Source: Bartonella sp. DB5-6 (GTDB lineage Bacteria > Pseudomonadota > Alphaproteobacteria > Rhizobiales > Rhizobiaceae). From it: 64,000 bases of DNA. The notes under the pieces were generated by a model. The model made no database searches, was not told the DNA's origin, and was given only the letters and a program-made list of their open reading frames with translations. The stretch spans positions 124,001 to 188,000 of the forward strand of contig NZ_JH725115.1 in assembly GCF_000278115.1 (NCBI RefSeq). The letters run 5' to 3'. Position numbers and translations under genes: made by a program. Shown here piece by piece: positions 49,747 through 62,010 of the stretch; position 1 is the first letter of the stretch, and every line of letters begins with the position of its first letter.

Positions 49747-50652
49747 ATGGATGATGTTGAAAACGATGTTGCAGATGTTTTTGAAAAACAAGCAGCATTT
49801 TTATCGTCTGCTTTACCTTATATGCAAAAATATGAAAATGAAACGGTTGTTGTGAAGTATGGTGGTCACGCTATGGGTGATCCTGCTTTGGGGCGAGCGT
49901 TTGCGCGTGATATTGCTCTGTTGAAGCAATCAGGAATTAATCCCGTTGTTGTTCATGGTGGAGGTCCTCAGATTGCAGAAATTTTGATGAAAATGGGAAT
50001 TGAGTCGCGGTTTGAAAATGGTTTGCGTGTAACCGATGAGCGGATTGTGGAAGTGGTTGAAATGGTTTTGGCAGGCTCCATAAACAAGGAAATAGTTGCT
50101 CTTATCAATGCAGAGGGTGAATGGGCAATAGGGTTATGCGGTAAAGATGGCAATATGGTTTTTGCCGAAAAAGCTTATAAAACTATAATTGATCCCGATT
50201 CACATATTGAACGTGTTTTAGATTTGGGATTTGTTGGTGAACCTGTTGAAGTTGATCGCACATTACTGGATCTTTTGGCATGTTCTGAAATGATTCCAGT
50301 TCTTGCTCCTGTAGCGCCAGGTCGCGATGGCAAAACCTATAATATTAATGCTGATATTTTTGCTGGAGCCATTGCCGGTGCATTAGAGGCAAAACGCCTT
50401 TTGTTTCTGACAGATGTTTCTGGTGTCTTAGATAAACAGAGTAAACTTTTAAAGAAATTGACAATTTCTGAAGCTGAGAATCTTATAAAAAATGGAACAA
50501 TTTCAGATGGTATGATCCCAAAGGTAGAGACTTGTATAAAAGCTCTCCAAAATGGTGTCGAAGGTGTTGCCATTTTAAATGGCAAAACTCCCCATTCTGT
50601 CCTGCTAGAGCTGTTCACCGAACAGGGAGCTGGAACGCTTATTATTCCATAA
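49747..50652 (+). CDS. argB: Acetylglutamate kinase
   Basis: ArgB phosphorylates N-acetylglutamate in the second step of arginine synthesis. The 301 residues show [13 protein letters not shown] at the start, [16 protein letters not shown], and [13 protein letters not shown]. The C-terminal half includes [20 protein letters not shown] and [17 protein letters not shown] strong gaggagg ... ATG precedes the start (the site is gatgaggaggcccttttaATG). No other arg gene is adjacent. The EamA transporter gene follows at 34 bp. Confidence 0.95.
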
Positions 50653-60438: not shown

Positions 60439-60690
60439 TTAGTGCAGAGTTACAATTTTCAGTTCATGCTCATTGGCTCCTGCAAGAGCGATAGCACGCT
60501 CATCGGATAAAATGATTGGATAGCCTGTTTCACCAAAGAGAGCCCATATTGTAATGCCTGGGGTCATTGGTGGAAGATCTGGAAAGTTTTTAGCCAAATC
60601 ATCTGTACAAACCTTTTTTAAATAAGCAATTTGCCCCGTATCGGAGTGAGTTGTATCTTGCAACGGCAGGTTCTGTTTGTGCTCTCCCAT
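60439..60690 (-). CDS. DUF1150-family protein
   Basis: An 83-residue protein of the DUF1150 family, found in alphaproteobacteria right after hsp20 genes. The core GITIWALFGETGYPIILSDE and a final ELKIVTLH block are typical. It starts 29 bp after the hsp20 stop and is probably heat-induced with it. Function unknown. Confidence 0.88.
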   Translation of the reverse strand: MGEHKQNLPLQDTTHSDTGQIAYLKKVCTDDLAKNFPDLPPMTPGITIWALFGETGYPIILSDERAIALAGANEHELKIVTLH

Positions 60691-60719: not shown

Positions 60720-61148
60720 TTACTCACCGCTACTACAATTGATCGGAATCTGTACTGTTTGCTTTTTTGATTTCGGTTGATGCAGATTAATTGATAAGAG
60801 ACCATTTTTCAACTCAGCATTTGTAACATGCATTCCCTCAGCGAGAACAAAGATGCGTTGAAATTGACGTGCCGCTATACCGCGATATAAATACTCATGA
60901 TTTTGACTATCCGCTTGTTTACCATGAATGATTAGTTGATTGTTGTCAAGCAAGATATTGAGGTTATTGACTTTAAATCCAGCAACAGCCAAAGTTATGC
61001 GTATATGGTTTGTGTCGTCGTTTTTGTGCAAACGTTCAATATTATAGGCCGGATAAGCCTCATCAGCTTTACCAATACGTCGCAATGCTTTTTCTATAGT
61101 TTCAAATCCTAAAAGAAAGGGATTGGAGAAAGGCGTCACATGTGTCAT
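60720..61148 (-). CDS. Small heat-shock protein Hsp20 (IbpA-like)
   Basis: A 142-residue alpha-crystallin-type holding chaperone. The domain includes FSNPFLLGFETIEKALRRIG, YPAYNIERLHKNDDTNHIRI and the AARQFQRIFVLAEGMHVTNA block with a C-terminal alpha-crystallin motif. The ATG at 61148 (MTHVTPF) has a GAGGA upstream that is part of a ROSE hairpin; an in-frame TTG at 61166 is not a likely start. A strong sigma-32 promoter precedes the leader. It is divergent from nth. Confidence 0.95.
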   Translation of the reverse strand: MTHVTPFSNPFLLGFETIEKALRRIGKADEAYPAYNIERLHKNDDTNHIRITLAVAGFKVNNLNILLDNNQLIIHGKQADSQNHEYLYRGIAARQFQRIFVLAEGMHVTNAELKNGLLSINLHQPKSKKQTVQIPINCSSGE

Positions 61149-61214
61149 TGTGAGTGTCCTCTTCAAAGCGACTCTACTTAAACCAAGCTCTATAACAAAG
61201 TGCTCGCTACATCT
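61149..61214 (-). ncRNA. ROSE-type RNA thermometer in the hsp20 leader
   Basis: The leader of about 66 nt ends in a hairpin that buries the Shine-Dalgarno. In RNA terms UCGCU (complement of 61167-61171) pairs with AGGA (complement of 61157-61160) around a UUGAAG loop, with one bulged G. This UYGCU motif opposite the SD is the defining ROSE feature, and flanking GAG/CUC pairs lengthen the stem. Rhizobial ibpA genes carry such elements; heat melts the stem and frees translation. The 5' limit is inferred from the promoter. Confidence 0.8.
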
Positions 61215-61220
61215 CTCTCA

Positions 61221-61249
61221 ATATGGCGAGTGTGGATGATAACTTCAAG
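61221..61249 (-). promoter_or_regulatory. Sigma-32 (RpoH) promoter of hsp20
   Basis: On the minus strand a -35 box cttgaa (complement of 61244-61249) and a -10 box ccatat (complement of 61221-61226) are separated by exactly 17 bp. This is a near-perfect alphaproteobacterial heat-shock promoter, placed to start the ROSE leader near 61214. Confidence 0.8.
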
Positions 61250-61269: not shown

Positions 61270-62010
61270 ATGATTCAAAGAAAAATAAAGTTATCACAGA
61301 CACGAAAATCTGTTAAAATATTGTATAGCAAAGACGAAATTGAAGAAATATTTCGTCGTTTTTCTATTCAACGTCCCACTCCTAAGAGTGATCTTATCTA
61401 TACCAATGTTTTTACTCTTTTAGTTGCGGTTGTTCTTTCAGCTCAGGCTACAGATACGAGTGTGAATAAAGCGACAAAAGAATTATTTCGCCTCGCTGAT
61501 CAACCGGAAAAAATGGTTGCATTAGGAGAAGAAGAAATTGCACGTCATATTCGTACAATTGGTCTTTGGCGTGCAAAAGCGCGTAATGTTTATGCACTTT
61601 GCAATTTTTTAATTGATCACTATGGTGGTCAAGTGCCTGATAAACGTGAAGCACTTATGGCACTTCCTGGAGTAGGGCGTAAAACGGCTAATGTTGTTTT
61701 GAATGTTGCTTTTGATCAGCCTACATTGGCGGTAGATACGCATATTTTTCGGCTTGGAAACCGTCTTGGTTTAGCATTTGGCAAAACACCAGAGATTGTT
61801 GAAGAAAAGTTACTAAAGATTATACCGGTGCATTATCTTCGTCATGCGCATCATTGGCTTATTTTACATGGGCGTTATATTTGCCAAGCGCGTAAAGCAC
61901 AATGTACGCAATGTATTATTGCTGATCTGTGTAAAGCAGCCATCAAAACAAATGCAATTCCAGCACCTTTGGTTGAAGTTCAAGGCAATGGGTCTCCGAT
62001 TTTTTTTTGA
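61270..62010 (+). CDS. nth: Endonuclease III
   Basis: A 246-residue DNA glycosylase/AP lyase that removes oxidised pyrimidines. The helix-hairpin-helix has LMALPGVGRKTANVVL with the catalytic Lys, and LAVDTHIFRLGNRL carries the catalytic Asp. The iron-sulfur cluster ligands are C-X6-C-X2-C-X5-C in CQARKAQCTQCIIADLC. It is divergent from hsp20 and precedes rpmI. Confidence 0.96.
   Translation: MIQRKIKLSQTRKSVKILYSKDEIEEIFRRFSIQRPTPKSDLIYTNVFTLLVAVVLSAQATDTSVNKATKELFRLADQPEKMVALGEEEIARHIRTIGLWRAKARNVYALCNFLIDHYGGQVPDKREALMALPGVGRKTANVVLNVAFDQPTLAVDTHIFRLGNRLGLAFGKTPEIVEEKLLKIIPVHYLRHAHHWLILHGRYICQARKAQCTQCIIADLCKAAIKTNAIPAPLVEVQGNGSPIFF

Follow-up and report, generated by a model that had tools for sequence, protein, structure and literature searches.

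A putative ROSE-type RNA thermometer, probably weakened, in front of the hsp20-larA gene pair of Bartonella

The minus strand of the analyzed 64,000-nucleotide stretch of the Bartonella sp. DB5-6 genome (contig NZ_JH725115.1, positions 124,001 to 188,000; hereafter, the window) carries a small heat shock protein gene, hsp20, followed by a gene for a DUF1150 protein, with a promoter and a predicted mRNA leader in front of hsp20. The features, given in the window coordinates, are the following:

61249-61244, minus strand: -35 element, CTTGAA, of an RpoH (sigma-32) type promoter
61226-61221, minus strand: -10 element, CCATAT, 17 nt after the -35 element
61149-61214, minus strand: predicted 5' leader of the hsp20 mRNA, about 66 nt, its start placed about 7 nt after the -10 element
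61184-61206, minus strand: hairpin I, a CGAGC/GCUUG stem, the remodeled counterpart of the AUGCC/GGGU hairpin of relatives
61153-61175, minus strand: hairpin II, ROSE-type, GUC-[G]-CU(U) with (G)AG-GAC, predicted from the letters and the energy in the ROSE register
61171-61167, minus strand: anti-Shine-Dalgarno motif UCGCU, with the bulged G at 61169
61166-61161, minus strand: loop of hairpin II, UUGAAG (UGAA if a U-G pair closes it)
61160-61157, minus strand: Shine-Dalgarno (SD) sequence AGGA, 8 nt before the ATG
60720-61148, minus strand: hsp20, small heat shock protein of 142 amino acids (Pfam PF00011, E 9e-16), ATG at 61148-61146
60439-60690, minus strand: larA-like gene, DUF1150 protein of 83 amino acids (Pfam PF06620, E 2.3e-21), C-terminus ...IVTLH

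The two genes are separated by 29 nt and are likely to belong to the same operon. The DUF1150 protein belongs to the family of LarA, the protein that in Caulobacter is encoded after shsp2 and, according to PMC10665427, activates Lon via a C-terminal stretch of five residues with histidine at the end; the protein encoded in the window also has a histidine as the final residue. Across the promoter from hsp20, there is a divergent HhH-GPD gene with the ATG at 61270, only 20 nt from the -35 element of hsp20; if this ATG is correct, the promoter of the HhH-GPD gene has to share sequence with the promoter or leader of hsp20.

The promoter has the arrangement of boxes by which RpoH promoters are defined, CTTGAA-N13-18-CNCCATAT-like, with CGCCATAT as the second box, and the distance from the end of the -10 element to the hsp20 ATG is 72 nt. 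The exact string CTTGAA-N17-CCATAT occurs a single time in the 2.13 Mb genome; when up to one mismatch is allowed, it is found 11 times, compared with 15 times for the reversed control. The string CTTGNN-N17-CCATAT is present in all 23 leaders of the Bartonella clade to which the window belongs, in all nine of a second Bartonella clade and in 81 of 94 other Hyphomicrobiales loci. The cttgaa-N17-ccatat promoter proposed for the minus strand in a preliminary description of this DNA is thus borne out both by the letters and by the orthologous promoters across Hyphomicrobiales, and the promoter string suggests that hsp20 is transcribed by RpoH under heat stress. At relaxed Rfam thresholds, the best match beside the promoter, to MIR5285 (E 0.0021, 25.7 bits, with the cut-off of 88.5), and two weaker matches are far below the respective cut-offs and were dismissed as chance.

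The same description proposed that UCGCU pairs with the AGGA of the SD in the last hairpin of the leader, with a bulged G and a UUGAAG loop, and all these elements are found in the letters. The gene downstream encodes a small heat shock protein (PF00011), and the start-codon-proximal hairpin contains a U(U/C)GCU motif that is predicted to pair with the SD with its G bulged; these are two of the features by which the ROSE motif is defined. The definition also calls for one or more additional hairpins upstream, for which hairpin I is the candidate, and for a heat-driven increase in translation through melting. In the ROSE register, where an A-A mismatch lies below the core, ViennaRNA gives hairpin II energies of -5.7 kcal/mol at 25 C and -3.3 kcal/mol at 37 C; the latter value falls within the spread of the relatives. 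Free folding arrives at a structure of lower energy than the ROSE hairpin, with a CUUU/GAGG pairing inside GAGU/ACUC, a fold that likewise covers most of the SD. The folding energy of the window leader is no better than that of shuffled sequences (z of 0.54 and 0.16), and the pattern GTYGCT-N4-9-AGGAC is found five times in the genome, compared with 11 times for the reversed control; only the window site among the five has, by eye, an ATG 8 nt after AGGA. Both the energy and the string counts are within the chance expectation and, by themselves, would suit a hairpin that fortuitously surrounds an ordinary SD. Because the letters alone do not exceed chance, the evidence has to come from the conservation of the element at this position in front of the orthologous gene of other species.

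The comparison set consisted of 126 loci of the orthologous gene with upstream sequence, near copies included (one further locus, L030, comes without upstream sequence). The pattern UYGCU..AGGR precedes the gene in four of the 23 loci of the window clade, in all nine of the second Bartonella clade and in 89 of the 94 other Hyphomicrobiales loci. For the structural analysis, an alignment (A2) was constructed with all Bartonella excluded and near copies (more than 80% alike) removed, which left 62 leaders, of which 54 were aligned; L036, L039, L047, L133 and L138 had been excluded beforehand for a missing or poor match to the pattern (L039 does contain UYGCU..AGGR), and L035, L041, L042, L043, L045, L046, L124 and L127 were omitted from the 62. 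Given this selection, the alignment leans to the motif. On the 54 leaders, RNAalifold gives, unprompted, two hairpins, one of the AUGCC/GGGU type and the other GUC-G-CUY/RAG-GAC, with the conserved G unpaired. Over 645 cells, 92.1% are paired compared with 85.0% in shuffles, and the covariation score is 0.314 compared with 0.187; none of the 500 shuffles attains either value, and when the partners are slid by one column, the pairing falls to 66% or less. Within the hairpin II helix, 96.6% of the cells are paired in these selected leaders. Three of the seven pairs of this helix are invariant and two vary on one side only, so that the covariation support for hairpin II comes from the outer pair (GU, UA or AU, unpaired in 13 of the 54 leaders) and from the loop-closing pair (UA, CG or UG). 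The energies of L037, L119 and L126 are void as the pattern took the wrong register. One of the loci, L089, comes from a record titled Bacillus subtilis and encompasses a Hyphomicrobiales-type hsp20 with a ROSE-type leader that is close to L069; this is likely to be a mislabeled or contaminated assembly.

A covariance model (R1) built from the 54-leader alignment, hence with zero Bartonella sequences in the training set, finds all nine loci of the second Bartonella clade (six distinct leaders), with scores of 30.3-32.9 bits and E-values from 1.3e-5 to 4.9e-5. Bartonella sp. M0177, taken to be a strain from bees, has the same leader as L025 of this clade, and hence the clade is called bee-type here. 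The orthologous position of the window element, the conserved bulged G and the UYGCU..AGGR motif, the covariation in the 54 relatives and the R1 matches in the bee-type clade taken together make the chance origin of the hairpin exceedingly improbable, the unremarkable energy and string counts notwithstanding.

The window leader itself shows no significant match to R1: the match scores 11.1 bits (E 0.61), covers hairpin II only and is the second-best of the three that R1 yields within the window, and in the genome-wide search with E up to 10, this leader is not listed. The best-scoring match in the window, at 50135-50181 (13.2 bits), is devoid of the SD hairpin core and was rejected as chance, as was the one genome-wide match (24.4 bits, E 0.02), which lies antisense inside another open reading frame, presumably serC. 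Among the 23 loci of the window clade, seven (L015, L016, L004, L010, L001, L019 and L017) appear at E-values from 0.29 to 7.8 and the remaining 16 are absent. The poor scores in this clade are accounted for by the remodeling of hairpin I and by the replacement of the first U of the motif with C in 19 of the 23 leaders. With the window failing on the R1 score, the link to the family is made by orthology and the core motif, not by the score.

The Rfam search that the preliminary description suggested as a check came out negative, with no match in the window to the ROSE models RF00435, RF01832 and RF02523 at either the gathering or a relaxed cut-off, and none in the whole genome for RF00435 (E up to 10) or RF02523 (E up to 1). 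Nearly all tested relatives were missed as well. Among 18 non-Bartonella and two bee-type loci compared with Rfam, only L044 has a ROSE match, at 21.3 bits (cut-off 43). RF00435 exceeds the cut-off in one of 61 genomes, and each of its three matches with E of 1 or less directly precedes an hsp20-type gene, whereas RF02523 is above the cut-off in none of the 61 genomes and below it in 13, and also in six of 14 control genomes. The Rfam ROSE models thus overlook nearly all tested Hyphomicrobiales leaders of the hsp20-larA type gene, so that the absence of a match says little against the window leader.

Within the window clade, the leader has changed substantially. The clade alignment (A3) included 21 of the 23 leaders, the remaining two being copies. 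For these 21, RNAalifold recovers a hairpin I stem of the CGAAC/GUUUG type, with both-side changes at three of the five pairs, each in one or two sequences; R1 does not recognize hairpin I of the window. The ROSE hairpin is not returned for the 21 clade leaders; instead, the consensus fold covers the SD with a stem of the C-UUU/GAGG type and pairs GUCA with UGAC across the start codon. The bulged G, the preceding C, the two Us after CG-C/U and the SD AGGA are invariant in all 21. When the motif starts with C instead of U, the energy in the ROSE register is above zero, whereas the four leaders that carry the U have values of -3.3 (the window), -2.2, -0.4 and +1.0 (L016) kcal/mol.

In the window clade, the YCGCU arm can also pair one step over, with CC/GG and CU/AG pairs and with G facing A where the ROSE register has the bulged G; a thermometer that operates in this shifted register is an alternative, compatible with the reading of the leader as a ROSE-type thermometer, which we consider unlikely. 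Each of the 21 leaders can form all four shifted pairs with standard partners (84 of 84 cells, counting G-U), compared with a C-A juxtaposition in the ROSE register in 17 of the 21. In the CCGCU species, the shifted hairpin has an energy of -1.2 to -2.3 kcal/mol, as opposed to positive values in the ROSE register. However, the shifted hairpin of the three CCGUU leaders reaches only 0.0 kcal/mol, its pairs never change on both sides and thus gain no support from covariation, and the window, which could use either register, has the U and favors the ROSE register (-3.3 vs +1.4 kcal/mol). In favor of the ROSE-type reading of the window leader, the predicted opening of the SD between 28 and 42 C rises more in the window, from 0.008 to 0.071, than in the CCGCU species, from 0.011 to 0.035 (medians); three other UCGCU leaders, for which the curve did not rise steadily, were set aside. 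The rise in the window is matched by 34 of 300 shuffled leaders and the closure at 28 C by 97 of 300, with only the base counts preserved in the shuffles; the leader L022 of the bee-type clade, which is recognized by R1, is not special in this respect either (68 and 128 of 300).

To trace the history of the critical letter, a tree of 28 Bartonella was computed from hsp20-larA together with the upstream sequence, with the leader excluded. Parsimony requires at least five changes between U and C, and one loss followed by four regains (in the window line, L004, L016 and L017) fits five changes compared with about 10, by hand count, for losses alone. By parsimony, then, the U in the window line appears to have been regained, on a quick tree with long branches and six of 25 inner branches open, which cannot itself distinguish gain from loss. 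A speculative and rather doubtful extension of this history is that the heat set-point is retuned in Bartonella by a single letter, the U having been lost once at the base of the clade, giving rise to the shifted G-A hairpin, and regained independently in four lines including that of the window, so that closely related species would differ in the response of hsp20 to warmth.

The same genome encodes a second small heat shock protein (locus L059), with the minus-strand leader at 1156-1039 and the ATG at 1038 in the numbering of that locus; this second gene is present in all 37 Bartonella genomes, as judged from the places of the matches. An alignment (A4) of 20 Bartonella leaders, out of the 37 genomes, shows a longer leader in which the first hairpin displays both-side changes in five of eight pairs and a GUC-G-CUC/GAG-GGC hairpin covers the SD, with UCGCU in 19 of the 20 leaders and CUGCU in one. 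On these structural predictions, the second hsp20 has a stronger ROSE-type leader than that in the window. R1 gives L059 only 7.0 bits. No Rfam match above the cut-off was obtained for the 14 second-hsp20 leaders given to Rfam, and among the 20 second-gene leaders, only L147 matches, in the correct place (ROSE_2, 19.8 bits, cut-off 65).

The window-type hsp20, by contrast with the second gene, is absent or reduced to a remnant in nine of the 37 Bartonella genomes (G005, G009, G015, G016, G022, G024, G029, G030 and G032). Remnants with stop codons were detected in four of these (L048 in G022, L049 in G015, L050 in G005 and L161 in G024), and these stretches contain no exact CTTGAA-N17-CCATAT on the strand of the gene. 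DUF1150 is found in 36 of the 37 genomes, the miss being G009, so that larA is an orphan in several lines.

These losses bear on the principal competing explanation, namely, that the window leader is a relic that descends from a ROSE element and no longer senses temperature in this clade, with heat control exerted by RpoH at the level of transcription alone. This is a real contender that we nevertheless hold to be the less probable one. Apart from the gene losses, it gains from the disappearance of UYGCU in most of the clade leaders, the barely detectable R1 score of the window, the clade consensus fold that lacks the ROSE hairpin and the availability of the stronger ROSE-type leader of the second hsp20. 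Against it stand the intact core of the window, with its negative ROSE-register energy, the invariance of the bulged G and three more letters of that arm in the 21 leaders, and the parsimonious regain of the U in the window line.

ROSE elements are a known class, and by its letters the window leader is a member of that type. In rhizobia, the elements described by RF00435, RF01832 and RF02523 precede small heat shock genes and pair UYGCU with the SD, as in the window, and RF02523 shows a GAUGCC/GGGUC first hairpin like that of the relatives of the window; these rhizobial models, however, do not match the window. According to PMC3989490, every class A small heat shock gene in Mesorhizobium loti is preceded by a ROSE element. 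The short ROSE-like thermometers of Pseudomonas ibpA (PMC3669281) share the sigma-32 promoter with the window and, in reporters assayed in E. coli, gave a 3.3- to 8.3-fold increase from 25 to 42 C, whereas the window leader is a prediction from sequence; the latter also differs in the remodeled hairpin I and in the presence of larA behind the gene. The shsp2-larA operon of Caulobacter has the same gene order, a small heat shock gene and then DUF1150, and is directly controlled by sigma-32, according to PMC10665427; the word thermometer is absent from the main text of that paper. A 2005 survey of alpha- and gamma-proteobacteria, cited in PMC3669281 and remarked on in PMC4166951, may already list Bartonella; our literature search, conducted outside that survey, found no Bartonella ROSE element in print among the matches listed. 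PMC8070961 concerns the Brt RNAs, and PMC7143759 names Bartonellaceae only.

In gamma-proteobacteria, IbpA represses its own synthesis via the ibpA 5' leader, according to PMC10474464. By analogy, Hsp20 might bind and repress its own leader, with the hairpins serving this purpose, a mechanism compatible with a ROSE-type thermometer; nothing in the sequence favors protein control over direct melting, and we regard it as highly improbable.

The weight of the evidence favors the view that the window leader is an orthologue of the ROSE-type thermometer that precedes hsp20-larA across Hyphomicrobiales and that it probably hides the SD and melts upon heating. The 'defining ROSE geometry' that the preliminary description saw here stands as far as the core is concerned, given the orthology to the Hyphomicrobiales leaders and the bulged-G hairpin returned by RNAalifold for 54 of these; a textbook ROSE element is not supported, considering the remodeled hairpin I, the low R1 score, the divergent consensus fold of the clade and the lack of the motif U in most of its members. 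Most likely, this is a weakened thermometer that is probably still working. Since the element is weaker than those in many relatives and the upstream hairpin is remodeled, this species probably responds to heat less steeply or with a lower set-point.

Under the proposed mechanism, RpoH would make the hsp20 transcript upon heat stress, in accord with the promoter. At low temperature, UCGCU would pair with AGGA around the bulged G, so that the SD is hidden; heat would then open this weak stem and ribosomes could start on hsp20. Via the operon, the amount of LarA, the Lon activator, may rise too. Such dual heat control, as the preliminary description suggested, may be meaningful for an organism that moves between arthropod and mammal temperatures. 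One heat switch, therefore, may be common to the synthesis of a holdase and, through LarA, to the activation of Lon. The Bartonella leaders form a natural series, from intact to broken by one letter to loss of the gene, which lets one ask what temperature sensing is worth across hosts.
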